Shown: positions 3,114 through 35,241 of the stretch, in pieces
How the letters are laid out: each line of letters opens with the position of its first letter
How positions within the stretch are numbered: position 1 is the first letter of the stretch
From: a bacterium
GTDB taxonomy: Bacteria; Vulcanimicrobiota; Vulcanimicrobiia; Vulcanimicrobiales; Vulcanimicrobiaceae
DNA: 35,896 bases
Assembly: GCA_021805775.1 (NCBI GenBank)
Contig: JAJZED010000008.1
Coordinates: 1 to 35,896 of the forward strand
Direction: 5' to 3'
The notes under the pieces: model-generated
What the model was told of the DNA's origin: nothing
Databases searched by the model: none
The model's input: only the letters and a program-made list of their open reading frames with translations
Program-made: the position numbers and the translations under genes

Positions 3114-4889
3114 ATGCGCTTTTTCCCCGACTCGCGCCTTATCGTATTTTCCGCTGCTCTGCTCTTGCTCGCCGGCTGCGGCGGCGGAGCGGCCTCCGGC
3201 GGGCTCGGCTCGACGCTGCCGAAGCAGACGAACGGAGCGACGGGGAGCGTTCGCTTCGCGATTACGGTGCCGCCGAAAACGGCGAGCAGCGGTCGCAGCC
3301 CGGCCTACGTTTCGCTGGCGACGCAATCGATGACGATTGCCGTGTTGCAGGGTACGACCAACGTGCTGAACCAAACGCTCGGTTTGACGCCGAGTTCGCC
3401 GGGGTGTACCACCTCGCTCGCGGGTACCCTCTGCACGATTTCGTTAAGTTTGGCGGCTGGTTCGTACACGGCATCGATCACGACGTACGACGGTGCGAAT
3501 GGGACGGGGAACGCGCTCTCGACGGCGCAGAGCGTTGCCTTCACCGTAACGGCGAATCAAAATAATCTCGTTCCGCTAACGCTGAGCGGCATTCCGACGG
3601 CGATCCACGTAGCGAGTGCGGGCGCGAATGCAGTCGATGTGCTGGCGCAGGATGCCGACGGCAACTTCATCGTCGGCGCGGGCGCGCCGACGTTTACGGC
3701 GAGTGCGAGCTCCGGCCCGGCGCTCGCAACGATCGTGCAACCGACGGCGAGTCACCCAAACCTGATTTCGTTCGTGCAGGCCTCGCCCACCGTTCTTGGT
3801 ACGGAGACGTTTGCAGTCGCGGCGAGCTACCCGGCGGGGGAGAGCAACGCGTGCACGCAGACGGGGGCGGTCTGCTCGCTTTCTTCGGCGCTGACGGCGA
3901 AAGTATCGGCACCGATGGCGATGGTCGCGGACTATGGCAACTCTCTCGTCCTCGGGTACACACTGCCGCTTACGAGTGCGATGCAACCCCCCGCCGTTTC
4001 CATTCCACTGAACAATGGCGGTTATCTTGCTGAAGACGCAAGCGGCAATGTTTTTGCTGCGAGCTATAGCATCCCGACGACCGTGTTGGAGATTCCTCCG
4101 CCGTACACCGCTGCGACAGTCACCAACTCCCTCGGAGGGGAGAATGTCAAACAAATAGCGGTGGCGCCGAATGGCGATCTCGCGTTGGCTAATATCGCCG
4201 GAAGCGTGGGCGGCTCGCTCTACGCCCCGCCCTACACGGCCGCCCCGACCGCGCTCTCAAACGGACTGAGCCGTCCGTACGGGGTCGCTTTCGATGCGAG
4301 CAACAACCTCTATTTCGGAAACAACGGCGCCAGCACGCTAACGATGCTCGCGCCGCCCTACACCGGAGCGCCGACGACCGTGAGCATTTCCGCGGCTGCC
4401 AATGGGCTCACCGTATCGGGCACGACGCTCTTCGTTAATGAGTATGCTGCTGTCGACGTCTTTTCGTTGCCGCTCACCGCTTCGAGCACGCCGATGGCTA
4501 AGCTTACTAGGGGTATTGGGACTGCCTATCGGAGCGCGGTCGATGCAAGCGGAAATCTCTGGGTTGCCAGCATTAGCGGCGGAGCGAGCAATGCGGGCTC
4601 GATCGAAGAGTTCACCAAGCCGTTTAGCACCGGCGAAACTCCGGCGGTGACGATCTCTATGCCGGTCGGCGGTGGATCGACCAGCTACTACCCATGGGGG
4701 ATCGCTTTCGATGCGGCGGGCAATCTCTATGTGACAAATGAATCTGGTGGCGCAGGGAGCGGTGGGTTGTTGGAGTTCTCTCCACCGATTACGAGTACGA
4801 GCAAGCCGACGTTTGCGATCGAGACCTCGGATTTCCAGTACTTATCCGACATCGTCATCACCCCGTCGCTGTTCTCGGTAACCCCGTAA
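3114..4889 (+). CDS. Array paralog 1: Ig-like / beta-propeller lipoprotein
   Basis: First of six tandem paralogs, 591 residues. A signal peptide ends at the lipobox LLAGC (Cys22), followed by a glycine/serine tether. Residues about 43-160 and 160-265 are two beta-rich, Ig-like domains, each with a close Cys pair (CTTSLAGTLC and CTQTGAVC). From about 268 to the end there are seven NHL/SGL-like blades with the recurring pattern G-h-A-x-D-A-x-G-N-L-h-V-x-N. The last strand (DIVIT) probably closes the ring with the first blade. The start has GAGAGGG five bases upstream and a signal sequence (MRFFPDSRLIVFSA) unlike the MRSVSG start of the other copies. It is the most divergent copy. A role in binding a ligand at the cell surface is inferred from the fold. 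No enzyme motif is seen. Confidence 0.85.
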   Translation: MRFFPDSRLIVFSAALLLLAGCGGGAASGGLGSTLPKQTNGATGSVRFAITVPPKTASSGRSPAYVSLATQSMTIAVLQGTTNVLNQTLGLTPSSPGCTTSLAGTLCTISLSLAAGSYTASITTYDGANGTGNALSTAQSVAFTVTANQNNLVPLTLSGIPTAIHVASAGANAVDVLAQDADGNFIVGAGAPTFTASASSGPALATIVQPTASHPNLISFVQASPTVLGTETFAVAASYPAGESNACTQTGAVCSLSSALTAKVSAPMAMVADYGNSLVLGYTLPLTSAMQPPAVSIPLNNGGYLAEDASGNVFAASYSIPTTVLEIPPPYTAATVTNSLGGENVKQIAVAPNGDLALANIAGSVGGSLYAPPYTAAPTALSNGLSRPYGVAFDASNNLYFGNNGASTLTMLAPPYTGAPTTVSISAAANGLTVSGTTLFVNEYAAVDVFSLPLTASSTPMAKLTRGIGTAYRSAVDASGNLWVASISGGASNAGSIEEFTKPFSTGETPAVTISMPVGGGSTSYYPWGIAFDAAGNLYVTNESGGAGSGGLLEFSPPITSTSKPTFAIETSDFQYLSDIVITPSLFSVTP

Positions 4890-4961
4890 TTCGGTAGCCC
4901 CGTAATGATGAAACGATATCGCCCCGCTCGCGCGGTTCATACCGCCATGAAGGAGATTCCT

Positions 4962-6737
4962 ATGCGTTCTGTTTCCGGTTCGCGCGTTGCGGCCGCATTG
5001 ACCGCCCTGCTCTTGCTCGCCGGCTGCGGCGGCGGGGCCTCCTCCGGCGGGCTCGGTTCGACGCTACCGAAGCAGGCAAACGGAGCGACGAACAGCGTTC
5101 GTTTCGCGATTACGGTGCCGCCGAAAACGGCGAGCAGCGGCCGCAGCCCGGCGTATGTCTCGCCGGCGACGCAATCGATGACGATTGCCGTGTTGCAGGG
5201 CACGACCAACGTGCTGAACCAAACGCTCGGTTTGACGCCGAGTTCGCCGGGGTGTACCACCTCGCTCGCGGGTACCGTCTGCACGATTTCGTTAAGTTTG
5301 GCGGCTGGTTCGTACACGGCGTCGATCACGACGTACGACGGTGCGAACGGGACGGGGAACGCGCTCTCGACAGCGCAGAGCGTTGGCTTTTCCGTAACGG
5401 CGAATCAAAATAATCTCGTTCCGCTGACGCTCAGCGGCATTCCGAGGGCGATCCACGTAGCGAGTGCGGGCGTAAATGCAGTCGACGTGGTGGCACAGGA
5501 TGCCGACGGCAACTTCATCGTCGGCGCGGGCGCGCCGACCTTTACGGCGAGCGCGAGTTCGGGCCCGGCGCTCGCAACGATCGTGCAACCGACGGCGAGT
5601 CACCCGAACCTGATTTCGTTCGTTCGGGCCTCGCCCGCCGTTCTTGGTACGGAGACGTTTGCAGTCGCGGCGAGCTACCCGGCGGGGGAGAGCAACGCGT
5701 GCACGCAGACGGGGGCGGTCTGTTCGCTCGCGTCGGCGGTAACGGCGAACGTATCGGTGCCGATAGCGATGATCGCGAACGCTGGCAGTAATACTGTCCT
5801 CGGGTACACGCTGCCGCTTACGAGTGCGACGCAGAGCCCCAGTTTTTCCATTGCGCTGGGCGGCGCTTTCCTTCTTGCCGAAGATGCAAGCGGCAATGTT
5901 TTTGCCGCGAACTATAACTCCCCGGAGAGCGTCGTCGAGATTCCTCCGCCGTACGCTGTGGCGACAGTCACGAACTCCCTCGGGGGCGACGAGAGCGAAC
6001 AAATGGCGGTGGCGCCGAATGGCGATCTCGCGTTGGCTAATATCCCCGGAACCGTTGGCGGCTCGCTCTACACCCCGCCCTACACGGCCGCCCCGACCCC
6101 GCTCTCAAACGGACTGAGCACACCGTACGGGGTCGCCTTCGATGCGAGCAACAACCTCTATTTCGCAAACAGGGGCGCCAGCACGCTAACGATGCTGGCA
6201 CCGCCCTACACCGGCTCGCCGACGACCGTAAATACATCCTCAGTCCCCTTCGGCCTCACCGTATCGGGCACGACGCTCTTCGTCGGTGAGAGTACTGCTG
6301 TCGACGTCTTTTCGTTGCCGCTGACCGCTTCGAGTACGCCGATCGCGACGCTGAGTAGCGGTATCAGCTATGTCCATCGGAGCGCGGTCGATGCAAGTGG
6401 AAATCTCTGGGTTGCCAACGAGAGCGGCGGAGCGAGCAATGAGGGCTCGGTCGAGGAGTTCACCAAGCCTTTTACTACCGGCGAAACGCCGACGGTGACG
6501 ATCTCTATGCCGGCCGGGGGCGGATCCATCAGCCACGTTCCATGGGGAATCGCTTTCGACGCGGCGGGCAATCTCTATGTTACAAATGTAAATGGTGGCG
6601 CAGGGCAGGGTGGGTTGTTGGAGTTCTCTCCACCGATTACGAGTGCGAGCACGCCGACCGTTGCGATCGAGAGCTCGAATTTATCTTTCGTAGCTGACCT
6701 CGTCATCACCCCGCCGCCGCTTTTGGTAACCCCGTAA
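4962..6737 (+). CDS. Array paralog 2: Ig-like / beta-propeller lipoprotein
   Basis: 591 residues, with the same domain order as paralog 1. I start it at ATG 4962 (MRSVSGSRVAAALTALLLLAGC, lipobox Cys22), because AAGGAG lies seven bases upstream. The in-frame ATG at 4905 would put a 19-residue polar extension before the signal peptide. The second Ig domain begins IPRAIHVASAGVNAVDV, a version shared only with paralog 6. In the propeller, top-loop positions differ from the neighbours: AGSN after the first VAN/IAN strand, GGAFL before LAEDASG, and SYVH before RSAVDASG. It reads on into paralog 3: the stop codon TAA overlaps an ATG at 6737, and there is no terminator between them. Confidence 0.85.
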   Translation: MRSVSGSRVAAALTALLLLAGCGGGASSGGLGSTLPKQANGATNSVRFAITVPPKTASSGRSPAYVSPATQSMTIAVLQGTTNVLNQTLGLTPSSPGCTTSLAGTVCTISLSLAAGSYTASITTYDGANGTGNALSTAQSVGFSVTANQNNLVPLTLSGIPRAIHVASAGVNAVDVVAQDADGNFIVGAGAPTFTASASSGPALATIVQPTASHPNLISFVRASPAVLGTETFAVAASYPAGESNACTQTGAVCSLASAVTANVSVPIAMIANAGSNTVLGYTLPLTSATQSPSFSIALGGAFLLAEDASGNVFAANYNSPESVVEIPPPYAVATVTNSLGGDESEQMAVAPNGDLALANIPGTVGGSLYTPPYTAAPTPLSNGLSTPYGVAFDASNNLYFANRGASTLTMLAPPYTGSPTTVNTSSVPFGLTVSGTTLFVGESTAVDVFSLPLTASSTPIATLSSGISYVHRSAVDASGNLWVANESGGASNEGSVEEFTKPFTTGETPTVTISMPAGGGSISHVPWGIAFDAAGNLYVTNVNGGAGQGGLLEFSPPITSASTPTVAIESSNLSFVADLVITPPPLLVTP

Positions 6738-6793
6738 TGATGAAACCGTATCGCCCCGCTCGCACGGTTCATACCGCCATAAAGGAAATTCCT

Positions 6794-8569
6794 ATGCGTT
6801 CTGTTTCCGGTTTGCGCGTTGCGGCCGCATTGACCGCCCTGTTCTTGCTCGCCGGCTGCGGCGGCGGGGCCTCCTCCGGCGGGCTCGGTTCGACGCTGCC
6901 GAAGCAGGCAAACGGAGCGACGAACAACGTTCGTTTCGCGATTACGGTGCCGCCGAAAACGGCGAGCAGCGGCCGCAGCCCCGCGTACGTCTCGCCGGCG
7001 ACGCAATCGATGACGATTGCCGTGTTGCAGGGCACGACCAACGTGCTGAACCAAACGCTCGGTTTGACGCCGAGTTCGCCGGGGTGTACCACCTCGCTCG
7101 CGAGTACCGTCTGCACGATTTCATTGAGTTTGGCGGCTGGTTCGTACACGGCGTCGATTACGACGTACGACGGTGCGAATGGGACGGGGAACGCGCTCTC
7201 GACGGCGCAGAGCGTTGCCTTCACCGTAACGGCGAATCAAAATAATCTCGTTCCGCTGACGCTGAGCGGCATCCCGACGGCGATCCAGGTATCGAGTTTG
7301 GGCACGAATGCAGTCGACGTGCTGGCGCAGGATGCCGACGGCAACTTCATCGTCGGCGCGGGCGCGCCGACATTTACGGCGAGCGCGAGCTCGGGACCGG
7401 CGGTCGCAACGATCGTGCAACCGACGGCGAGTCACCCGAACCTGATTTCGTTCGTTCAGGCCTCGCCCACCGTTCTTGGTACGGAGACGTTTGCGGTCGC
7501 GGCGAGCTACCCGGCGGGGGAGAGCAATGCATGCACGCAGACGGGGGCGGTCTGCTCGCTTGCGTCGGCGATGACGGCGACAGTATCGGTGCCGATGGCG
7601 ATGATCGCGAACTCTGTCGGTAACACTGTCCTCGGGTACACGCTGCCGCTTACGAGTGCGACGCAAAGCCCCGCCGTATCCATTGCGCTGGGCGGCGCTA
7701 CCCGTCTTGCCGAAGACGCAAGCGGCAATGTTTTTGCCGCGAACTATGGCTCCCCGGAGAGCGTCGTCGAGATTCCTCCGCCGTACGCTGCAGCGACGGT
7801 TACGAACTCCCTCGGGGGCGACTATGTCCTCCAAATGGCGATCGCGCCGAACGGCGACCTCGCATTGGCTAATGCCACCGGAAGCGTGGACGGCTCGCTC
7901 TACGCGCCGCCCTATACGGCCGCCCCGACCGCGCTCTCAAACGGACTGAGCAGTCCGTACGGGGTCGCCTTCGATGCGAGCAACAACCTCTATTTCGGAA
8001 ACAACGGCGCCAGCACGCTAACGATGCTGGCGCCGCCCTACACCGGAGCGCCGACGACCGTGAGCCTTTCCTCGTACGCCGACGGGCTCACCGTTTCGGG
8101 CACGACGCTCTTCGTCGGCGAGAGTGCTGATGTCGACATTTTTTCGTTGCCGTTGACCGCTTCGAGCACGCCGATCGCGACGCTGAGTAGCGGTATCAGC
8201 GCGGCCTATCGGAGCGCGGTCGATGCAAGTGGAAATCTCTGGGTTGCCAACAATGCCGGCGGAGCGAGCAATAAGGGCTCGATCGAGGAGTTCACCACGC
8301 CGTTTACTACGGGAGAGGCTCCGACGGTGACGATCTCTATGCCGGTCGGCGGCGGATCGACCAGTTACAATCCATGGGGGATCGCTTTCGATGCGGCGGG
8401 TAACCTCTATGTTACAAACAGATCTGGTGGCGCAGCAGGCGGCGGGTTGTTGGATTTCTCTCCACCGATTACGAGTGCGAGCAAGCCGACGTTTGCGATC
8501 GAGACCTCGAATTTGAATAGTTTATTCGACCTCGTCATCACCCGGCCGCCGCTTTCGGTAACCCCGTAA
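6794..8569 (+). CDS. Array paralog 3: Ig-like / beta-propeller lipoprotein
   Basis: 591 residues, started at ATG 6794 with AAAGGAAA upstream, a slightly weaker ribosome-binding site than in paralogs 2, 4 and 5. The signal peptide and lipobox are as in paralog 2. The first Ig domain belongs to the NQTLGLTPSSPGC type (paralogs 1, 2, 3, 6), but the second begins IQVSSLGTNAVDV, the type of paralogs 4 and 5, so the gene looks recombinant. The C-terminal end (TSNLNSLFDLVITRPPLSVTP) is nearly the same as in paralog 6. Variable loops include SVGN, GGATR, DYVL and RSGGAAG. Confidence 0.85.
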   Translation: MRSVSGLRVAAALTALFLLAGCGGGASSGGLGSTLPKQANGATNNVRFAITVPPKTASSGRSPAYVSPATQSMTIAVLQGTTNVLNQTLGLTPSSPGCTTSLASTVCTISLSLAAGSYTASITTYDGANGTGNALSTAQSVAFTVTANQNNLVPLTLSGIPTAIQVSSLGTNAVDVLAQDADGNFIVGAGAPTFTASASSGPAVATIVQPTASHPNLISFVQASPTVLGTETFAVAASYPAGESNACTQTGAVCSLASAMTATVSVPMAMIANSVGNTVLGYTLPLTSATQSPAVSIALGGATRLAEDASGNVFAANYGSPESVVEIPPPYAAATVTNSLGGDYVLQMAIAPNGDLALANATGSVDGSLYAPPYTAAPTALSNGLSSPYGVAFDASNNLYFGNNGASTLTMLAPPYTGAPTTVSLSSYADGLTVSGTTLFVGESADVDIFSLPLTASSTPIATLSSGISAAYRSAVDASGNLWVANNAGGASNKGSIEEFTTPFTTGEAPTVTISMPVGGGSTSYNPWGIAFDAAGNLYVTNRSGGAAGGGLLDFSPPITSASKPTFAIETSNLNSLFDLVITRPPLSVTP

Positions 8570-8570
8570 C

Positions 8571-8594
8571 GATGAAACGATGAAACGATGAAAC
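8571..8594 (+). repeat. Three copies of GATGAAAC in the leader of paralog 4
   Basis: The octamer GATGAAAC is repeated three times immediately after the stop codon of paralog 3, placing ATG triplets at 8572, 8580 and 8588. The equivalent leader of paralog 5 has two copies (10407-10422), and those of paralogs 2 and 3 have one. Because the period is 8, only the last ATG is in frame with the downstream gene. The first two open ATG AAA CGA TGA mini-frames. Confidence 0.8.
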
Positions 8595-8641
8595 GATATC
8601 GCCCCGCTCGCGCGGTTCATACCGCCATAAAGGAGATTCCT

Positions 8642-10405
8642 ATGCGTTCTGTTTCCGGTTCGCGCGTTGCGGCCGCATTGACCGCCCTGTTCTTGCTCGC
8701 CGGCTGCGGCGGGGCCTCCTCGGGCGGGCTCGGTTCGACGCTGCCGAAGCAGACGAACGGAGCGACGGGGAGCGTTCGCTTCGCGATTACGGTGCCGCCG
8801 AAAACGGCGAGCAGCGGCCGCAGCCCGGCGTATGTCTCGCCGGCGACGCAATCGATGACGATTGCCGTGTTGCAGGGTACGACCAACGTGCTGAACCAGA
8901 CGGTCGGCCTCACATCGAGTTCGACCGGATGCACGAGTTCGGCTGCGAGTACCACCTGCACCCTCGAACTCAGTCTCAATGCGGGCTCCTACACGGCGTC
9001 GATCACGACGTACGACGGAGCGAACGGGACGGGGAACGCGCTCTCGACCGCGCAGAGCGTTGCCTTCACCGTAACGGCGAATCAGAGTACGCTCGTTCCG
9101 CTGACGCTGAGCGGCATTCCGACGGCGATCCAGGTATCGAGTGCGGGCACGAATGCAGTCGACGTGGTGGCGCAGGATGCCGACGGCAACTTCATCGTCG
9201 GCGCGGGCGCGCCGACCTTTACGGCGAGCGCGAGCTCCGGCCCGGCGCTCGCAACGATTGTGCAACCGACGGCGAGTCACCCGAACCTGATTTCGTTCGT
9301 TCAGGCCTCGCCCACCGTCTCGGGTACGGAGACGTTTGCAGTCGCGGCGAGCTACCCGGCGGGGGAGAGCAACGCGTGCACGCAGACGGGGGCGGTCTGC
9401 TCGCTTTCCTCGGCGATGACGGCGAAAATACCGGCGCCGATGGCGATGGTCGCGAATCAGTCCCATAATACGGTCCTCGGGTACACGCTGCCGCTTACGA
9501 GTGCGACGCAGAGCCCCGCCGTTTCCATCGGACTGAACAATCCCGAGTATCTTGCTGAAGACGCAAGCGGCAATGTTTTTGCCGCGAACCTTGGCGGCCC
9601 GACGATCGTCCTCGAGATTCCGCCGCCGTACACCGCAGCGACGGTTACGAACTCCCTCGGGAACAACGATGCCCTCCAAATGGCATTGGCGCCGAACGGC
9701 GATCTCGCGTTGGCTAATGTCGGGGACGGCTCGCTCTACGCGCCGCCCTATACGGCCGCCCCGACCGCGCTCTCAAACGGACTGAGCAGTCCGTACGGGG
9801 TCGCCTTCGATGCGAGCAACAACCTCTATTTCGGAAACAACGGCGCGGTCACGCTAGCGATGCTCGCGCCGCCCTACACCGGAGCGCCGACGACCGTGAG
9901 CCTTTCCTCGTACGCCGACGGGCTCACCGTATCGGGCACGACGCTCTTCGTCGGCGAGAATGCTGATGTCGACATTTTTTCGCTGCCGCTCACCGCTTCG
10001 AGCACGCCGATTGCGACGCTGAGTAGCGGTATCAGCAGGGTCTTTCGGAGCGCGGTCGATGCAAGCGGAAATCTCTGGGTTGCCAACCAGCACGGCGGAG
10101 CGAGCAATGAGGGCTCGATCGAGGAGTTCACCAAGCCGTTTAGCACCGGCGAAATTCCGGCGGTGAGGATCTCTATGCCGGTCGGCGGCGGATCCACTAG
10201 CTACAATCCATGGGGGATCGCTTTCGATGCGGCGGGCAATCTCTATGTTACAAACACTTACGGTGGCACAGGGAATGGCGGGTTGTTGGAGTTCTCTCCA
10301 CCGATTACGAGTGCGAGCAAGCCGACCGTTGCGATCGAGACCGCGAATTTGTATAACCTATACGACCTCGTGATCACCCGGCCGCCGCTTTCGGTAACCC
10401 CGTAA
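8642..10405 (+). CDS. Array paralog 4: Ig-like / beta-propeller lipoprotein
   Basis: 587 residues, the shortest copy. It starts at ATG 8642 behind AAAGGAGATTCCT. One Gly is missing from the tether after the lipobox, and a blade-3 loop is shortened (ANVGDGSLY where the others have about four more residues). Its first Ig domain carries an alternative block (NQTVGLTSSSTGC, then TTCTLELSLNAGS and NQSTLVPL) shared almost base for base with paralog 5 only. The propeller loops QSHN, NNPEY, NDAL and TYGGTGN are distinct. It lies in the same transcription direction as its neighbours, with no terminator. Confidence 0.85.
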   Translation: MRSVSGSRVAAALTALFLLAGCGGASSGGLGSTLPKQTNGATGSVRFAITVPPKTASSGRSPAYVSPATQSMTIAVLQGTTNVLNQTVGLTSSSTGCTSSAASTTCTLELSLNAGSYTASITTYDGANGTGNALSTAQSVAFTVTANQSTLVPLTLSGIPTAIQVSSAGTNAVDVVAQDADGNFIVGAGAPTFTASASSGPALATIVQPTASHPNLISFVQASPTVSGTETFAVAASYPAGESNACTQTGAVCSLSSAMTAKIPAPMAMVANQSHNTVLGYTLPLTSATQSPAVSIGLNNPEYLAEDASGNVFAANLGGPTIVLEIPPPYTAATVTNSLGNNDALQMALAPNGDLALANVGDGSLYAPPYTAAPTALSNGLSSPYGVAFDASNNLYFGNNGAVTLAMLAPPYTGAPTTVSLSSYADGLTVSGTTLFVGENADVDIFSLPLTASSTPIATLSSGISRVFRSAVDASGNLWVANQHGGASNEGSIEEFTKPFSTGEIPAVRISMPVGGGSTSYNPWGIAFDAAGNLYVTNTYGGTGNGGLLEFSPPITSASKPTVAIETANLYNLYDLVITRPPLSVTP

Positions 10406-10469
10406 CGATGAAACGATGAAACGATATCGCCCTGCTCGCATGGTTCATACCGCTATGAAGGAGATTCCT

Positions 10470-12245
10470 ATGCGTTCTGTTTCCGGTTCGCGCGTTGCGG
10501 CCTTATTGACCGCCCTGCTCTTGCTCGCCGGCTGCGGCGGCGGCGGGGCCTCCTCCGGCGGGCTCGGTTCGACGCTACCGAAGCAGGCAAACGGAGCGAC
10601 GGGGAGCGTGCGCTTCGCGATCGTGGTGCCGCCGAAAACGGCGAGCAGCGGCCGCAGCCCCGCGTATGTCTCGCCGGCGACGCAATCGATGACGATTGCC
10701 GTGTTGCAGGGTACGACCAACGTGCTGAACCAGACGGTCGGCCTCACATCGAGTTCGACCGGATGCACGAGTTCGGCTGCGAGTACCACCTGCACCCTCG
10801 AACTCAGTCTCAATGCGGGCTCCTACACGGCGTCGATCACGACGTACGACGGAGCGAACGGGACGGGGAACGCGCTCTCGACCGCGCAGAGCGTTGCCTT
10901 CACCGTGACGGCGAATCAGAGTACGCTCGTTCCGCTGACGCTGAGCGGCATTCCGACGGCGATCCAGGTATCGAGTGCGGGCACGAATGCAGTCGACGTG
11001 CTGGCGCAGGATGCCGACGGCAACTTCATCGTCGGCGCGGGCGCGCCGACGTTTACGGCGAGCGCGAGCTCGGGACCGGCGGTCGCGACGATCGTGCAAC
11101 CGACGGCGAGTCACCCGAACCTGATTTCGTTCGTTCAGGCCTCGCCCACCGTTCTTGGTACGGAGACGTTTGCAGTCGCGGCGAGCTACCCGGCGGGGGA
11201 GAGTAATGCGTGCACGCAGACGGGGGCGGTCTGCTCGCTTTCCGCGGCGGTAACGGCGAAAGTATCGGCACCGATGGCGATGGTCGCGAATCAGTCCAAT
11301 AATACTGTCCTTGGGTACACGCTGCCGCTTACGAGTGCGACGCAGAGCCCCGCCGTTTCCATTCCACTGAGCGTCGCTTACCGTCTTACTGAAGACGCAA
11401 GCGGCAATGTTTTTGCCGCGAACTATGGCTCCCCGGAGAGCGTCCTCGAGATTCCTCCGCCGTACACTTCTGCGACGCTTACCAACTCTCTCGGAGGCGA
11501 TGATTCCTTCCAAATGGCGGTGGCGCCGAACGGCGACCTCGCGTTGGCTAATTTCACTGGAAGCGCGGGCGGCTCGCTCTACACCCCGCCCTACACGGGC
11601 GCCCCGACCACGCTTTCAAACGGACTGAGCAGTCCGTACGGGGTCGCCTTCGATGCGAGCAATAACCTCTATTTCGCAAACAGCGGCGCCAGCACGCTAA
11701 CGATGCTGGCACCGCCCTACACCGGAGCGCCGACGACCGTAAGCATTTCCTCGGTTGCCTATGGGCTCACCGTATCGGGCACGACGCTCTTCGTCGGCAA
11801 GAGTGCCGCTGTCGACATCTTTTCGCTGCCGTTGACCGCTTCGAGCACGCCGATCGCGACGCTGAGTAGCGGTATCAGCGGGGTCCATCGGAGCGCGGTC
11901 GATGCAAGCGGAAATCTCTGGGTTGCCAACGATACCGGCGGAGCGAGCTATGAGGGCTCGATCGAAGAGTTCACCAAGCCGTTTACTACGGGCGAGGCTC
12001 CGGCGGTGACGATCCTTATGCCGGTCGGCGGCGGATCGAGCAGCTACAATCCATTTGGAATCGCTTTCGATGCGGCGGGCAATCTCTATGTTACAAACAC
12101 TTCCGGTGGCGCAGGGAGCGGCGGATTGTTGGAGTTCTCTCCACCGATTACGAGTGCGAGCAAGCCGACCGTTGCGATCGAGACCGCGAATTTGAATAGC
12201 CTATATGACCTCGTCATCACCCCGTCCTTCTCGGTAACCCCATAA
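10470..12245 (+). CDS. Array paralog 5: Ig-like / beta-propeller lipoprotein
   Basis: 591 residues, started at ATG 10470 with AAGGAG seven bases upstream. Four glycines follow the lipobox Cys, one more than in paralog 2. Over roughly 270 bp of the first Ig domain (10729-11000) it appears identical to paralog 4 apart from one synonymous change, the clearest gene-conversion tract in the array. Its propeller differs from paralog 4: SVAYR, DDSF, SGVH and YNPF in the variable loops. It ends two bases before the start of paralog 6, so the two may be translationally coupled. Confidence 0.85.
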   Translation: MRSVSGSRVAALLTALLLLAGCGGGGASSGGLGSTLPKQANGATGSVRFAIVVPPKTASSGRSPAYVSPATQSMTIAVLQGTTNVLNQTVGLTSSSTGCTSSAASTTCTLELSLNAGSYTASITTYDGANGTGNALSTAQSVAFTVTANQSTLVPLTLSGIPTAIQVSSAGTNAVDVLAQDADGNFIVGAGAPTFTASASSGPAVATIVQPTASHPNLISFVQASPTVLGTETFAVAASYPAGESNACTQTGAVCSLSAAVTAKVSAPMAMVANQSNNTVLGYTLPLTSATQSPAVSIPLSVAYRLTEDASGNVFAANYGSPESVLEIPPPYTSATLTNSLGGDDSFQMAVAPNGDLALANFTGSAGGSLYTPPYTGAPTTLSNGLSSPYGVAFDASNNLYFANSGASTLTMLAPPYTGAPTTVSISSVAYGLTVSGTTLFVGKSAAVDIFSLPLTASSTPIATLSSGISGVHRSAVDASGNLWVANDTGGASYEGSIEEFTKPFTTGEAPAVTILMPVGGGSSSYNPFGIAFDAAGNLYVTNTSGGAGSGGLLEFSPPITSASKPTVAIETANLNSLYDLVITPSFSVTP

Positions 12246-12247
12246 CG

Positions 12248-14044
12248 ATGAAACGAGATCGCCTGCGTTCTGTTTCCGGTTCGCGCGTTGCGGCCGCATT
12301 GACCGCCCTGTTCTTGCTCGCCGGCTGCGGCGGCGGAGCGGCCTCCGGCGGGCTCGGTTCGACGCTGCCGAAGCAGGCAAATGGAGCGACGAACAGCGTT
12401 CGTTTCGCGATTACGGTGCCGCCGAAAACGGCGAGCAGCGGTCGCAGCCCGGCCTACGTTTCGCCGGCGACGCAATCGATGACGATTGCCGTGTTGCAGG
12501 GCACGACCAACGTGCTGAACCAAACGCTCGGTTTGACGCCGAGTTCGCCGGGGTGTACCACCTCGCTCGCGGGTACCCTCTGCACGATTTCGTTAAGTTT
12601 GGCGGCTGGTTCGTACACGGCGTCGATTACGACGTACGACGGTGCGAATGGGACGGGGAACGCGCTCTCGACGGCGCAGAGCGTTGCCTTCACCGTAACG
12701 GCGAATCAAAATAATCTCGTTCCGCTGACGCTGAGCGGCATTCCGAGGGCGATCCACGTAGCGAGTGCGGGCGTAAATGCAGTCGATGTGGTGGCACAGG
12801 ATGTCGACGGCAACTTCATCGTCGGCGCGGGCGCGCCGACCTTTACGGCGAGCGCGAGTTCGGGCCCGGCGCTCGCAACGATCGTGCAACCGACGGCGAG
12901 TCACCCGAACCTGATTTCGTTCGTTCAGGCCTCGCCCACCGTTCTTGGTACGGAGACGTTTGCAGTCGCGGCGGGCTACCCGGCGGGGGAGAGTAATGCG
13001 TGCACGCAGACGGGGGCGGTCTGCTCGCTCGCGTCGGCGATGACGGCGACAGTATCGGCGCCGATGGCGATGGTCGCGAACTCTGGCGGTAATACTGTCC
13101 TCGGGTACACGCTGCCGCTTACGAGTGCGACGCAGAGCCCCGCCGTTTCCATTCCACTGTACACCGCTTACCTTCTTACCGAAGACGCAAGCGGCAATGT
13201 TTTTGCTGCGAGCTTTACCTCCCCGACGACGACCGTCCTCGAGATTCCTCCGCCGTACACTTCTGCGACGCTTACCAATTCTCTCGGAGGCGATGATTCC
13301 TACCAAATGGCGGTGGCGCCGAACGGCGATCTCGCGTTGGCTAATATCGCCGGAATCGCGGGCGGCTCGCTCTACGCGCCGCCCTATACGGCCGCCCCGT
13401 CCGCGATTACCAGCGGACTTAGTGGAGGAGCCGTCGCAGTCGCCTTCGATGCGAGCAACAACCTCTATTTCGGCAACAGCGGCGCCAGCACGCTAGCGAT
13501 GCTCGCGCCGCCCTACACCGGCTCGCCGACGACCGTGAGCCTTTCCTCGGTTGCCAACGGGCTCACCGTATCGGGCACGACGCTCTTCGTCGGCGAGACT
13601 TCTGATGTTGACGTCTTTTCGTTGCCGTTGACCGCTTCGAGCACGCCGATCGCGACGCTGAGTAACGGTATCGGGACTGCCTATCGGAGTGCGGTCGATG
13701 CAAGCGGAAATATCTGGGTTGCCAACTCTTCCGGTGGAACTTCTAGTAATGGCTCGATCGAGGAGTTCACCGAGCCGTTTAGCACCGGCGAAACTCCGGC
13801 GGTGACGATCTCTATGCCGGTCGGCGGCGGATCCACCAGCTACAATACATTGGGTATCGCTTTCGATGCGGCGGGCAATCTCTATGTTACAAACAGATCT
13901 GGTGGCGCAGGGAGCGGCGGATTGTTGGAGTTCTCTCCACCGATTACGAGTGCGAGCAAGCCGACGTTTGCGATCGAGACCTCGAATTTAAATAGTTTAT
14001 TCGACCTCGTCATCACCCGGCCGGCGCTTTCGGTAACCCCGTAA
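12248..14044 (+). CDS. Array paralog 6: Ig-like / beta-propeller lipoprotein with a rebuilt 5' end
   Basis: 598 residues. The leader that supplies AAGGAG and ATG in the other copies has been deleted. The former start codon position now reads CTG within MKRDRLRSVSGSR, so translation must begin at ATG 12248, two bases after the stop of paralog 5. No ribosome-binding site is visible, and coupling to paralog 5 is likely. The N-terminal signal peptide and lipobox survive. The protein is a mosaic: the second Ig domain (IPRAIHVASAGVNAVDV) matches paralog 2, while the tail (TSNLNSLFDLVITRPALSVTP) matches paralog 3. Blade 4 carries the only SGGAVAVAFD variant in place of PYGVAFD. Its 3' end faces the DUF4239 gene 28 bp away. 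Confidence 0.83.
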   Translation: MKRDRLRSVSGSRVAAALTALFLLAGCGGGAASGGLGSTLPKQANGATNSVRFAITVPPKTASSGRSPAYVSPATQSMTIAVLQGTTNVLNQTLGLTPSSPGCTTSLAGTLCTISLSLAAGSYTASITTYDGANGTGNALSTAQSVAFTVTANQNNLVPLTLSGIPRAIHVASAGVNAVDVVAQDVDGNFIVGAGAPTFTASASSGPALATIVQPTASHPNLISFVQASPTVLGTETFAVAAGYPAGESNACTQTGAVCSLASAMTATVSAPMAMVANSGGNTVLGYTLPLTSATQSPAVSIPLYTAYLLTEDASGNVFAASFTSPTTTVLEIPPPYTSATLTNSLGGDDSYQMAVAPNGDLALANIAGIAGGSLYAPPYTAAPSAITSGLSGGAVAVAFDASNNLYFGNSGASTLAMLAPPYTGSPTTVSLSSVANGLTVSGTTLFVGETSDVDVFSLPLTASSTPIATLSNGIGTAYRSAVDASGNIWVANSSGGTSSNGSIEEFTEPFSTGETPAVTISMPVGGGSTSYNTLGIAFDAAGNLYVTNRSGGAGSGGLLEFSPPITSASKPTFAIETSNLNSLFDLVITRPALSVTP

Positions 14045-30111: not shown

Positions 30112-30851
30112 AGCGGCGCCTCTTTATCGCATCGTCGATTGCCGCCGCCCTCGCCGGATGCGCGCCGATCGGAACGGCGCTCAACGATAATCCGGGCTTC
30201 CATCACTTTCTGGGCCTCGAGGGTTCGCTCGATGCAGCGTTGATGGGAAACCTTCCCGGGCTTGCGCGAGAATACTCGCTCGCCGATATCAGCAAGCATT
30301 TCCCCGTTGATAGTCTGCCGACGCCGATGACGTCGACCTACCGAAGCCTTCTCGAACATGATTTTCGGAACTATACGTTGAGCGTCGTCGGTGCGGTCGA
30401 ACGACCGCTGCGCCTGTCGCTCGCGCAACTGCAACGCATGCCGCAGCAGCGCCAGATCACGCGGCACGATTGCGTCGAAGGCTGGAGCGCGATCGGCGCG
30501 TGGACCGGGGTGCCGTTACGCCGCATCTTGCAGCTAGCGCGGCCGCGCCGCGAGGCTCGCTACGCAATTTTCCGCTGCATGGATAGCGACGACCAAGGGA
30601 TGCCCTATTACGAAAGCCTCGATATGGCGCAAGCCTACCAGCCGCAAACCCTTCTCGCCCTGCAACTTAACGGAGAGCCGATCCGTCCCGATCACGGTGC
30701 CCCCGTCCGTCTGCGCGTGCCGACCCAACTTGGGTATAAGAGTGCAAAATGGGTTCGCGAGATCGAAGTGCTTGGTTCGTTCACGCATCTCTACGGCGGG
30801 AAGGGCGGATACTGGGAGGACCAAGGTTACGAGTGGTACGCCGGGATCTAA
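30108..30851 (+). CDS. Sulfite-oxidase-fold molybdopterin oxidoreductase (lipoprotein)
   Basis: 247 residues. An N-terminal signal with twin arginine (MKRRLFIASS) runs into a lipobox ALAGC (Cys18), so it is probably exported and membrane-tethered. The oxidoreductase molybdopterin-binding domain starts near residue 85. Cys122 in HDCVEGWSAIG is the expected molybdenum ligand, and the strings APVRLRVPTQLGYKSAKWV and GYWEDQGYEWYAG close the domain as in the YedY/SUOX family. It lacks the C-terminal dimerisation domain of eukaryotic sulfite oxidase. With the cytochrome b it forms a two-gene unit. The substrate (sulfite, S- or N-oxide) cannot be told. A terminator follows at 30932. Confidence 0.9.
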   Translation: MKRRLFIASSIAAALAGCAPIGTALNDNPGFHHFLGLEGSLDAALMGNLPGLAREYSLADISKHFPVDSLPTPMTSTYRSLLEHDFRNYTLSVVGAVERPLRLSLAQLQRMPQQRQITRHDCVEGWSAIGAWTGVPLRRILQLARPRREARYAIFRCMDSDDQGMPYYESLDMAQAYQPQTLLALQLNGEPIRPDHGAPVRLRVPTQLGYKSAKWVREIEVLGSFTHLYGGKGGYWEDQGYEWYAGI

Positions 30852-31291
30852 CCTCCACTCGGGCGAGCGCGTGCGAACTGCCTACGCGCCGCTCGCCGAC
30901 CCCAGCACGCAACGCTATGTCGCCGTTCTCGGGGCGAAGAAAGCGCCCTGATTTTTTCGGTCCCCGTCCCATAAAACCCGATATCGAAATCGTCGGGTGA
31001 GTTCGCCGCATAGATGCTGTGAAAGAACGGATCTTCGTTGGGGAAGCGGACGCTGCTTCCGACCGGAATCACGAAGATGTCGGGAACGAATGCTTTATCT
31101 CGATTACGCATGATTGCATCGACCGGCGGTGCTTGCTTCGTATCGGGTATTCACGCGGCGACAAGCGTATCGCCATGCAGCAGCAATGTCGCGCCCGCCG
31201 ATGCCGGTGCGGCCGCCGCAGAGCCTGCCGCCGGAAAGCATAGGAAGGTCGCGATAAATGCGAAAGCACGAAATGCATGTGGCACCGACAT
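30848..31291 (-). pseudogene. Broken cupredoxin (plastocyanin-like) gene
   Basis: From ATG 31291 the frame encodes a clear signal peptide (MSVPHAFRAFAFIATFLC then AAGSAAAAPA) and 46 codons. It hits an in-frame TGA at 31151-31153. The same frame then resumes at once with a cupredoxin core, KAFVPDIFVIPVGSSVRFPN and EDPFFHSIY, where the His is the usual first copper ligand, and continues to DFDIGFYGTG. After that the similarity stops. The C-x-H-x4-M copper loop that should follow is absent in all three frames, and the plus-strand terminator at 30932-30957 occupies that place. So the gene has a nonsense codon and has lost its 3' end. The recognisable remnant is about 30958-31291. It overlaps the divergent gene at 31277 by 15 bp. 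Confidence 0.75.
30932..30957 (+). terminator. Rho-independent terminator of the cytochrome b / molybdoenzyme operon
   Basis: GGGCG (30932-30936) and CGCCC (30944-30948) form a stem around AAGAAAG, followed by TGATTTTTT. It lies 80 bp past the stop of the molybdoenzyme gene. It falls where the C-terminal end of the opposing cupredoxin gene would have been. Confidence 0.75.
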
Positions 31292-31978
31292 CGTGTGAAA
31301 CTTCGCCTCCTCCTCGCGCTTTCGTTGCTCGGCCTTGCTCCGTCGTCGATTGCGCTCGCCGCAGCGACGAAGGCTGCCGCTCGGCAAACGGTGGCGAGTC
31401 GCCGGGTCGATTTTGCGGGGCCGGGGCGCGGCACGTGGTTGGCAAGAGTGACGACCGAGCTACTCGGTCGAGATGACGCGCGGAGCTTCAAACAATGGCG
31501 AATCGAGATCGAGCGCCCACGGAGCCTCGGAGCGGGATTCGTCTATCGAACTCCGGGCACCGATACGCTGCTCGATCGCGTCGAGAAGGCGAGTGGAGCG
31601 AACCTCTGGTTCCCCAATCAGGAGGCGCAGTTGCTCGGCGACGGGCGCTTCCTTCCGGGCGAACGGCGCCAACTCGTCGTTCGCGTCTATCAGTCCGGCG
31701 CGGATTGTGGATCGGTGACCGTCGCTCTGCTGGGACTCCGGGGAAAGGCGGGGAGCGTCGGCCGACTGTTGAGCGTTGAGAACGCATGCTCGCTCGACGT
31801 GAAGATTCTCCGCGGCGCGAAGGGGGACGAATTGCTTCTCTCGGGCCCGTACTATGCGGAGAATGCGGCGCTCTGCTGCCCGACGAAGGCGCACGCCGAG
31901 GCCCGCTTGAGCTATCGAGGCGGACGCTGGATCGAACGGCCGCAGCTCTTTAAGATCGTGCCTCTCTCGGGGCAGTAA
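31277..31978 (+). CDS. Secreted protein of LppP/LprE-like type
   Basis: 233 residues from ATG 31277 (a GTG at 31295 would also keep the signal peptide; neither has a strong ribosome-binding site). A signal peptide (VKLRLLLALSLLGLAPSSIALAA) is followed by a mature domain with no transmembrane segment. The C-terminal string YYAENAALCCPTKAHAEARLSY with its adjacent cysteines resembles the end of LppP/LprE-type secreted proteins; two more cysteines (ADCGS and ENACS) could pair with them. Function unknown. It lies upstream of the GGDEF gene with a 29-bp gap and may be co-transcribed with it. Confidence 0.72.
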   Translation: MWHRHRVKLRLLLALSLLGLAPSSIALAAATKAAARQTVASRRVDFAGPGRGTWLARVTTELLGRDDARSFKQWRIEIERPRSLGAGFVYRTPGTDTLLDRVEKASGANLWFPNQEAQLLGDGRFLPGERRQLVVRVYQSGADCGSVTVALLGLRGKAGSVGRLLSVENACSLDVKILRGAKGDELLLSGPYYAENAALCCPTKAHAEARLSYRGGRWIERPQLFKIVPLSGQ

Positions 31979-32007: not shown

Positions 32008-35000
32008 ATGGACGGGCCTTCGCAGCCCGAACGTGCCCAGCAGCGACAACGGCGAGACCGCGATCTCGTCAAAGGCGCGGCCCTCCTGCTTTCTACCGAC
32101 CGACCGCTTCCCGATCTTTACGACGAATTCGTTTCACTGCTCGCACAGTTCGTCGATGCCTCGATCGTTCTCATCCTCGCGCCGGAGCGAGGAGCTTTGC
32201 AGTGCGTCTACGCCTATCTCGACGGGATCGGCGGCATTCCCGATAACCCCGGCGTTCCGCACGAGAGCACCAGCGCTCGTGTCTTTCGCGATGCCGACGC
32301 TCGCCTCTACGGGCGCGCTCGCGAGTGGAACGCCACGAACTATCTTCGCCTTGGCGAGCGCATTCGCGAGCCTGAATCGGCGATCTTCGTCCCCATACTC
32401 TTCGGCGGGCGAAGCATCGGCGTTCTCTCCGTTCAATCCACGCAACCCGATGCCTACGATGCCGACGATCTCGCGTTGCTCGAGACTTGCGCACTTTATC
32501 TTGGGGCGCGCATGCACAGCGATCTCGGCCGCCGCGATGCCGAGCGTTTCGAACGCCTCGCGCATGTCGACGAACTCACTGCAATTCCGAACCGGCGCAA
32601 TTTCGAAGAATGTTTCGAACGCGAAGCAACGCGCGCTCGTCGCATCGGCCGTCGACTCGCACTGTTGATGATCGACGTCGATCTCTTCAAGGAATTTAAC
32701 GATCGTTACGGCCATATCGCCGGCGATGCATGTTTGCAGCAAATCGCCGCGACGATCTCGCAGACGTTAAGGCGACCGACCGACCTCGTCGCTCGGTACG
32801 GGGGTGAGGAGTTCGTCGTCTTGCTTCCCGAGACCGAACTCTCCGGAGCGCTAGGGGTAGCCGAACTTATACGCGCATCGATCTCTGCTCTCGGCATTCC
32901 ACATGGCGGTTCGACCTTGGGGACGGTGTCGGTGAGCATCGGTTGTGCAAGCGGCACGCCGCGGGGAAACTCCGAACGCCAACAACTCATTGAAGCGGCC
33001 GACGCGGCGCTCTACCGTGCCAAACATGCCGGACGAAATCGCGTTGCGGCGGATCACCCCATAAACGTCGGCCCCTCGGTGGAGCGCCGGAGCGCGTTCG
33101 ACGGCGTTCCGACTTTCGCCGGGCGCTTTATCGAACGCTCGGAGGAAATTCGACGTCTCACCGTGGCAATCGAGCGCAGTGCCCTCGTGACATTGATCGG
33201 GAGCGCCGGAATAGGAAAAACTCGCACGGCCATCGAGGTCGTCGCTCGTCTGCTGCATCGCTTTCCCGACGGCGCGTGGTTCGTCGATCTCGCTGGGTGC
33301 GTCGACGAACGCGATGCCGAGGCTGCAATCGTGGAAGGGCTCGCTCCATTGGTGCGGCCGGGTTCCAATATGCGCGAATGCGTTCGCGCCTTTCAACGCG
33401 CGCGAGGTTTGCTGTTGCTCGATGCCTGTGACGCCGGCCTGCGAGCGGTTGGCGCGTGCATCGATCGGCTTCTCGAAGGAGCGCCCGAAATGCGCATCGT
33501 TGCAACCGCGCGTACGGCGTTCGGTGTGCTTGGTGAAGCGCCGCTCCGACTCGACCGGCTCGACTCTCGCGAGAGCGAACAATTGTTTTCGGTGCGTTTT
33601 GAAGAGTCGGCACGCGAACCGCTCGATGCGGTCTTGCTCGAGGCGCAAGTCCCGTCGTTACACGGCCATCCGCTGGCGATCGAACTCAGTGCAAATTATC
33701 TTAGCTCTCTCCCCACCGAACTTCGCGCTCGCGGAGGCGCCCTTGGCATCGAGAGTGTCGGCAGGCTTCGCGGCCTCGGCACACCCGCTCGTTCCGATCG
33801 AACCTTGGAGCGGGTCTTCAAGCGCAGTTACGCGGCACTCGACGAAGATCGTCGTCGGCTCTTGCGGAGGGTCTCGATGTTCTCGGGGGTTTGGAGCGCA
33901 ACGGCGGCACACGCGCTCTGTCGCAACGAAATACCCGATTTCAGCGCGACGGTCGCCGCGCTCGACGACCTCGTCCATCGAGGGCTTCTGCGTAAGCAAG
34001 CGCACGGCGAACGGACGCGCTATCGCATGATCGATGCTTTGTGCGCCGCGGCCCACGACAGCCTCGCGCGAGCCGGGGAGGTGACGATGGTGGCAATTCG
34101 CTATCGCGAATATTACGAAGAGCTCGCCGCTTCGATGCCGATGCGTTTTCGCGATGAGCCGTCAATGCGTTGGATTGCGCTGCTTAACGACGAATCGGCA
34201 AATATTCGCGCGGTGTTGCGAATGTTGCTCGCCGAAGGAGAATTCGAACGCGCCGCGCTTCTTCTCGACGGCCTGCGCTCGTGGACGTGGGAACGTGGCG
34301 CGCTTCATCTGCGGACCCTCGTGGAACGTCTCGAGGAAGCGGCACCGCGCGTTCGGGCATGCGGCGAACGCGCCGAAGCGGCACTTTCGTTGGCGATCGC
34401 CGGGCTATACGTACGGAACGATCCGGCGCGTACCGCGCGCTACGCTCGCATTGCCTACGATATTTACGAAAAGCTGGGGGACCGGATCCGAGCTTACCAG
34501 GCCCTCAATGCGTTTCTTGCCGGTGAGTTCATGGCGACCGGAACGATAGGCATGGAGTGGGCGTCGATTTTACAAGATGCGATCGCCATCGCCGAAGAGC
34601 ACGGTGAAGCGACGCTTGCCGTCGACCTCATGCATCGGTTGGGTGTCCTCTACGCGCAGCAAATCGATTCGGCATTGCTGGCGAGGGCTATGGAATGTTT
34701 CTCGTCGTGCATCGCTCGGCTCGAAGCAAGCGGCGATCGGGAACGAGCGGCACGGCTCTACGGAAGTAGCGCCGAGGTTGCTTTCCACTCCGGCGACATC
34801 GTCGATGCGATCGCTCGCGTTCGCCGAGCGATCGCCATCTACGAACAAAGCGATGAAATGTGGTTCATCGCCCTGCAATATATGAATCTTACCGTGTATG
34901 CTTCGTTTACGCGCGATTTCGTAACCGCCCGGGTAGCGCTTGCGAAAACTTTCGATTATGCGTTACGATTCGATGATGCGCTCGTGCAGAGCAACGGCTT

Positions 35001-35241
35001 CGATACCGCCGTTCATCTCGCGGCACTCTCCGGAAAGCACCGCGAAGCGGCGATTCTCACCGGGTATGCCGACGCTGCCCACGGCGAGCGGGGCGCGCGG
35101 CAGCCGCGCGACCAAATGTTGCTCGACCGGACGCTCGCGGAGGTACGCAAAACGGTTTTTTCCGACGAGTTCGATCGGCTCTACGAGCGTGGGCTCAATC
35201 TCTCCGCCGCTGAGGCCGATGCGTTGGCCCGCTCGCTATAA
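32008..35241 (+). CDS. GAF-GGDEF diguanylate cyclase fused to a STAND ATPase with TPR repeats
   Basis: 1077 residues, no membrane segment. Domains in order: GAF sensor (about 33-168); GGDEF domain (about 180-345) with active-site GGEEF at 265-269, the inhibitory RxxD site R256-D259 exactly five residues before it, and metal Asp in MIDVDLFKEFND; STAND/NB-ARC-like ATPase (about 370-640) with Walker A GSAGIGKT (398-405), Walker B LLLLDACD (468-475), the sensor strand RIVATARTAFGV and the GHPLAIELSA motif of AfsR/COG3903-type ATPases; a winged-helix-like segment (about 650-720); then helical TPR-type repeats to the end. The ATPase parts usually accompany LuxR or SARP regulators, but no DNA-binding output domain is present. 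It probably makes c-di-GMP under control of a ligand and of ATP-driven oligomerisation. The start has GGGGAAGG seven bases upstream. Confidence 0.88.
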   Translation: MDGPSQPERAQQRQRRDRDLVKGAALLLSTDRPLPDLYDEFVSLLAQFVDASIVLILAPERGALQCVYAYLDGIGGIPDNPGVPHESTSARVFRDADARLYGRAREWNATNYLRLGERIREPESAIFVPILFGGRSIGVLSVQSTQPDAYDADDLALLETCALYLGARMHSDLGRRDAERFERLAHVDELTAIPNRRNFEECFEREATRARRIGRRLALLMIDVDLFKEFNDRYGHIAGDACLQQIAATISQTLRRPTDLVARYGGEEFVVLLPETELSGALGVAELIRASISALGIPHGGSTLGTVSVSIGCASGTPRGNSERQQLIEAADAALYRAKHAGRNRVAADHPINVGPSVERRSAFDGVPTFAGRFIERSEEIRRLTVAIERSALVTLIGSAGIGKTRTAIEVVARLLHRFPDGAWFVDLAGCVDERDAEAAIVEGLAPLVRPGSNMRECVRAFQRARGLLLLDACDAGLRAVGACIDRLLEGAPEMRIVATARTAFGVLGEAPLRLDRLDSRESEQLFSVRFEESAREPLDAVLLEAQVPSLHGHPLAIELSANYLSSLPTELRARGGALGIESVGRLRGLGTPARSDRTLERVFKRSYAALDEDRRRLLRRVSMFSGVWSATAAHALCRNEIPDFSATVAALDDLVHRGLLRKQAHGERTRYRMIDALCAAAHDSLARAGEVTMVAIRYREYYEELAASMPMRFRDEPSMRWIALLNDESANIRAVLRMLLAEGEFERAALLLDGLRSWTWERGALHLRTLVERLEEAAPRVRACGERAEAALSLAIAGLYVRNDPARTARYARIAYDIYEKLGDRIRAYQALNAFLAGEFMATGTIGMEWASILQDAIAIAEEHGEATLAVDLMHRLGVLYAQQIDSALLARAMECFSSCIARLEASGDRERAARLYGSSAEVAFHSGDIVDAIARVRRAIAIYEQSDEMWFIALQYMNLTVYASFTRDFVTARVALAKTFDYALRFDDALVQSNGFDTAVHLAALSGKHREAAILTGYADAAHGERGARQPRDQMLLDRTLAEVRKTVFSDEFDRLYERGLNLSAAEADALARSL

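Follow-up and report, generated by a model that had tools for sequence, protein, structure and literature searches.

The window, by which we mean the entire 35,896-nucleotide stretch of DNA analyzed (contig JAJZED010000008.1 of assembly GCA_021805775.1, from a genome of the phylum Eremiobacterota), carries on its forward strand an open reading frame (ORF) at positions 32008-35241 that starts with ATG and is immediately preceded by a ribosome-binding-like stretch, GGGGAAGG. The encoded protein of 1077 residues combines a GAF domain, a GGDEF diguanylate cyclase domain, a STAND (NB-ARC) ATPase and a TPR array. A first-pass annotation had read this domain order in one chain from the sequence, and Pfam, family matches and fold comparison confirm that the fusion is real. 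The gene and its parts are listed below, together with the gene that precedes it.

31277..31978, + strand: protein of 233 aa, apparently with a signal peptide; separated from the cyclase-STAND gene by 29 bp
32008..35241, + strand: GAF-GGDEF-STAND(NB-ARC)-TPR protein, 1077 aa (Pfam, family matches, fold comparison)
32104..32502, + strand: GAF domain, residues 33-165 (Pfam GAF_2, 2.4e-10; low-confidence AF2 model)
32461..32565, + strand: predicted continuous helix joining GAF and GGDEF, residues 152-186 (AF2 model, low confidence before residue 181)
32560..33042, + strand: GGDEF diguanylate cyclase domain, residues 185-345 (Pfam GGDEF, 4.3e-50; motifs; fold)
33103..33567, + strand: STAND/NB-ARC nucleotide-binding domain, residues 366-520 (Walker A GSAGIGKT with K404; Walker B LLLLDAC with D472)
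33568..34077, + strand: helical and winged-helix part of the NB-ARC module, residues 521-690, including GHPLAIEL (model, fold, alignment)
34078..35238, + strand: TPR solenoid, residues 691-1077 (AF2, mostly pLDDT 75-96; Rap, LGN and KLC TPR matches, Z 17-20)

Domains and catalytic residues of the fusion protein

The model of the GGDEF domain matches WspR (3bre) with a Z score of 27.1 and 1.9 Å over 172 residues, and PleD with a Z score of 26. Its GGEEF motif spans residues 265-269, and an RxxD inhibitory site (I-site) at residues 256-259 (R256, D259) lies five residues before it. The metal-binding Asp pair (D223/D225) and the guanine-contacting residues N231 and D240 are also in place, such that every catalytic residue checked is present. 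The GGEEF motif and intact RxxD site reported by the first-pass annotation are therefore upheld by alignment, with no key catalytic residue lost, and a degenerate GGDEF domain is ruled out for this protein. Judging from these residues, the domain is apparently an intact enzyme that makes c-di-GMP.

The Walker A lysine named in the same annotation (K404) is likewise confirmed, and the ATPase additionally carries a Walker B motif of the hhhhD type and a GxPLA motif, the latter as GHPLAIEL. Structure comparison places residues 359-823 on Apaf-1 (Z 27, 429 residues aligned) and residues 365-1052 on the STAND-TPR protein 6mfv (Z 24, 576 aligned). Further fold matches of this part include the NB-ARC domain of tomato NRC1 (Z 25), MalT (Z 22) and Rap TPR proteins (Z ~20). 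The chain thus has the active site, I-site and fold of a GGDEF domain, NB-ARC motifs, and an NB-ARC fold followed by a repeat array, which is the presumed sensor of a ligand or partner.

Profile searches with the single protein are less sensitive than those with its family. Pfam matches to AAA_16 (1.3e-4) and TPR_12 (0.023) in the 1077-residue protein both lie under the Pfam cut-offs, and a phmmer search of its STAND-TPR half against the PDB yields no match. Across 38 family members, however, AAA_16 is matched in 36, TPR_12 in 27, NB-ARC in 23 and GAF_2 in 20, and a family profile searched against solved structures matches both AfsR (8k60, 8jke) and WspR. The ATPase and TPR assignments in the window protein are based on these matches of its relatives and on its own fold comparison. 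The putative GAF domain rests on the Pfam match, the AF2 model being of low confidence in this region.

Distribution, selection and genomic context

To define the family, we searched genomes with a profile composed of the GGDEF domain and the first part of the ATPase, with an Eremiobacterota sample serving as the positive control. The search across genomes proposed by the first-pass annotation finds the same domain order in 36 of 147 Eremiobacterota genomes (18 of 70 genera), from which 51 distinct chains were read. All of these genomes belong to the family of the window's organism, save one that is assigned to another family in the same class. At comparable cut-offs, the fusion was not found in 296 Actinomycetota or 299 Pseudomonadota genomes. 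The search of 151 Armatimonadota genomes returned only GGDEF-sized matches and no fusion, and that of 301 Chloroflexota genomes, with two candidates scored per genome, returned only STAND-sized matches among the matches listed. Searches centered on 'Pleurocapsa' and 'Dormiibacterota' gave the same genomes as the Chloroflexota sample and are counted as its resamples; with a shorter profile, Chloroflexota resamples were empty.

Among the phyla sampled, the GGDEF-STAND family has so far been found only in Eremiobacterota. The samples taken outside this phylum comprise the four named above. Very divergent or independently formed fusions elsewhere might be missed, because even the weaker Eremiobacterota fusions score at ~1e-95 to 1e-110.

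Full-length orthologues with 81-87% identity are present in six congeners, and identity to the window protein falls to only ~24-35% in members beyond the genus. Within the genus, dN/dS is 0.03-0.05 for GGDEF, 0.04-0.08 for GAF, 0.07-0.10 for the nucleotide-binding domain, 0.14-0.20 for the helical and winged-helix part and 0.08-0.11 for the TPRs. These low values in every part indicate that purifying selection acts along the whole chain. Conservation is highest in GAF and GGDEF (91-95% identity, dN/dS 0.03-0.08), and the later NB-ARC part and the TPRs vary more. A chance fusion, a misassembly or a frame artefact is excluded by the full-length orthologues in six congeners together with the low dN/dS over GGDEF.

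Family members largely retain the residues that are intact in the window protein. GGEEF occurs together with Walker A in 48 of the 51 chains, and Walker A in essentially all; the RxxD site is kept in 47, the guanine-site Asp in all 51, and the GGDEF motif is altered in only three. One of the altered motifs, GEEEF, is seen at L129. Some copies depart from the usual gene layout: one genome (G026) carries two GGDEF-STAND genes in tandem (L132:5172-11740), another (G018) has four such genes, and two chains (L129:4776-8975 and L141:5867-10327, with start codons as predicted) are extended at the N-terminus by ~380-430 residues that include a PDZ match.

The surroundings of the gene are conserved within the genus. 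Upstream lie genes for cytochrome b561 and a molybdopterin oxidoreductase and an acyl-CoA catabolism cluster, and downstream lies a carboxyltransferase gene, just past which one locus (L125:3747-6519) has a DUF1800-DUF1501 gene pair. The 233-residue protein encoded directly upstream has no Pfam or NCBIfam match. The six congeners retain it, one other genus (G022) has it ahead of the fusion too, and it is a likely operon partner of the cyclase-STAND gene.

Relation to class III cyclase-STAND proteins

Homologues that lack a GGDEF domain most commonly begin with a class III cyclase (27/61 in the tree set, by motif). Pfam confirms a Guanylate_cyc domain in one of these, L029, which served as the control for the window protein, where no Guanylate_cyc match was obtained. 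Other homologues begin with a TIR domain (L060), an HTH (L039) or a BTAD-like region, or have no additional N-terminal domain. The first-pass annotation had treated a second-messenger cyclase as lying outside the usual outputs of STAND ATPases. That view does not hold, as chains with an N-terminal class III cyclase followed by NB-ARC (CHD-NB-ARC) have been described in mycobacteria, M. tuberculosis included (PMC4452763), and are common among the homologues found here. Enzymatic second-messenger outputs on STANDs being already known, the GGDEF-STAND proteins are not categorically new.

With either cyclase type, the spacing to the ATPase is nearly fixed. GGEEF and Walker A are separated by 122-131 residues in each of the 51 family chains, with a median of 129. 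In the class III cyclase-STANDs, which come from five phyla, 22 of 27 chains have a corresponding motif-to-Walker A distance of exactly 202 residues, and the overall range is 200-212, an unexpectedly strict spacing (27 loci, e.g. L029, L055, L066 and L082). This near-constant distance and the restriction, so far, to one phylum are additions to what the first-pass annotation had noted.

In a tree of the STAND part, 21 Eremiobacterota chains, 14 with a class III cyclase and seven with GGDEF, form one clade with a support of 98 (97 in a reduced set), and one further STAND tree recovers the same mixed clade plus one HTH protein. The remaining GGDEF chains fall outside this clade, and class III chains are present in other phyla too. 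AU tests reject neither a single clade of all GGDEF-STANDs (p 0.089) nor a single clade of the class III set (p 0.123). Resolution in the GGDEF-domain tree is too low for counting fusion origins; the constant spacing between GGEEF and Walker A would be in keeping with a junction that arose once. Given the mixed clade, the type of cyclase on the STAND chassis has probably changed at least once. The likelier direction would be from class III to GGDEF, because class III chains are widespread and GGDEF chains are restricted. The window protein looks like a variant of the cAMP-making STAND switches in which the signal-making enzyme has been exchanged. The STAND part of its clade lies on a long branch, so its mechanism may differ from that of textbook STANDs.

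The closest precedent is the Rv0386 type of class III cyclase-NB-ARC protein (mclx genes, CHD-NB-ARC-LuxR; PMC4452763, PMC2447327), which likewise places an N-terminal cyclase before an NB-ARC/AAA ATPase; the class III homologues analyzed here share the near-fixed distance to Walker A. The window protein differs in having GAF-GGDEF rather than a class III cyclase and in ending with TPRs, with no domain match to a C-terminal LuxR HTH. AfsR (BTAD-NB-ARC-TPR; 8k60, 8jke) resembles it in the NB-ARC core, as judged by the family profile, and in the C-terminal TPRs, although the output of AfsR is DNA binding rather than a cyclase. WspR, PleD and other GGDEF diguanylate cyclases share the fold, active site and I-site, whereas they are switched by receiver or small sensor domains and not by a STAND ATPase.

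Two further systems combine some of the same parts. In VMAP/vWA-MoxR conflict systems, which are likewise linked to NTPases, GGDEF occasionally takes the place of a cNMP cyclase (PMC7159879), although with other NTPases and modular components. A Ser/Thr kinase-TPR-GGDEF protein of C. thermocellum combines TPR and GGDEF within a single large polypeptide; it differs by its N-terminal kinase and C-terminal GGDEF, and no STAND ATPase is reported for it (PMC1262709). Our literature search found no description of the GGDEF, STAND ATPase and TPR architecture among the papers examined. The GGDEF-STAND protein is a new variant on the STAND-cyclase theme, with a testable spacing rule.

A candidate switch and its alternatives

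The protein shares its chassis family with the class III adenylyl/guanylyl cyclase-NB-ARC-TPR proteins. We favor the reading, at a probability of roughly 0.55, that it works as a STAND switch with a second-messenger cyclase as output, a GAF-GGDEF module having taken the slot of the class III cyclase. A ligand or partner would be sensed by the TPR solenoid, and the N-terminal GAF domain would supply a second input. Exchange of ADP for ATP in the NB-ARC module would then open the chain and permit oligomerization, and the short, length-constrained linker would bring GGDEF domains into an antiparallel pair that could condense two GTP molecules into c-di-GMP, with the RxxD I-site providing product inhibition. 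We infer that the signal runs in this direction, from sensor to cyclase. The proposal that ATP-driven assembly controls a dimerizing cyclase, made in the first-pass annotation, is supported as plausible. The same genome encodes further GGDEF proteins, EAL-like motifs in some of them, and seven PilZ frames, so c-di-GMP signaling is present in the host and the product could be read.

A more specific version can be offered tentatively, and we hold it with less than even confidence. The family would comprise c-di-GMP synthases driven by STAND assembly into an Apaf-1-like wheel, evolved through exchange of the cyclase of a cAMP/cGMP STAND, and in the window's genus it may report the state of the conserved, presumably secreted partner. 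If true, c-di-GMP synthesis would be placed under ATP-gated assembly like that of the apoptosome and plant resistosomes. The related chassis constitute a natural experiment, in that some carry a class III cyclase and others GGDEF, with a nearly constant spacing to the ATPase for each, and they make STAND control of enzymatic N-terminal domains testable with two easily measured products.

The GAF domain alone might switch GGDEF through the linking helix, leaving the STAND-TPR part as a partner-binding scaffold that holds the enzyme near its target rather than as a gate. GAF can regulate GGDEF unaided, and the predicted helix at residues 152-186 links the two domains as in ordinary GAF-GGDEF enzymes. 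GAF-like N-termini are also common in the family (the 20 of 38 GAF_2 matches), and GAF and GGDEF are more conserved than the later NB-ARC part and the TPRs. However, a passive scaffold would need neither a Walker A motif kept in essentially all 51 chains nor a near-fixed spacing, and GAF is undetectable in several members. We therefore consider GAF-only control unlikely.

Less probable still is a reversed flow of information, wherein c-di-GMP or GTP bound at the I-site or active site of GGDEF controls the STAND oligomer and the output is a TPR-bound partner. GGDEF domains can serve as nucleotide sensors, and conservation of RxxD in 47 of 51 chains agrees with such a role, whereas GGDEF receptors usually have degenerate active sites, which only 3 of the 51 chains show.

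The first-pass annotation also raised an immunity-like sensor, which in this case would flood the cell with a cyclic dinucleotide upon infection. The fold is common to Apaf-1 and NLRs, and homologous STANDs carry other N-terminal effectors such as TIR. This suggestion nevertheless fares poorly and appears improbable, given the synteny beside metabolic genes conserved in congeners and the purifying selection that extends to the TPRs. PADLOC returns for the window protein only one weak match, to mad8, within the P-loop region (85 residues, 18.8 bits, 2.2e-4). A phage- or plasmid-borne gene was dropped as a candidate, as no plasmid or phage record covers 80% of the protein. Some GGDEF domains make another nucleotide, 3',3'-cGAMP (Hypr type), and these enzymes replace the guanine-contacting Asp; with this residue (D240) invariant in 51 of 51 chains, there is no sign of such specificity and we give it very little credence.

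Two other features of the window were noted. A short ORF at 30848-31111 on the minus strand has a sequence, SVRFPNEDPFFHSIY, that by eye looks similar to a cupredoxin-like motif, and it has no Pfam or NCBIfam match. At 3114-14044 on the plus strand lies a recent tandem array of six genes, arranged head to tail. Their products look secreted, are 591-610 residues long and share 82-84% identity with the first; they begin with a lipobox-like sequence (LLAGCGGG) and match NHL/propeller repeats weakly.
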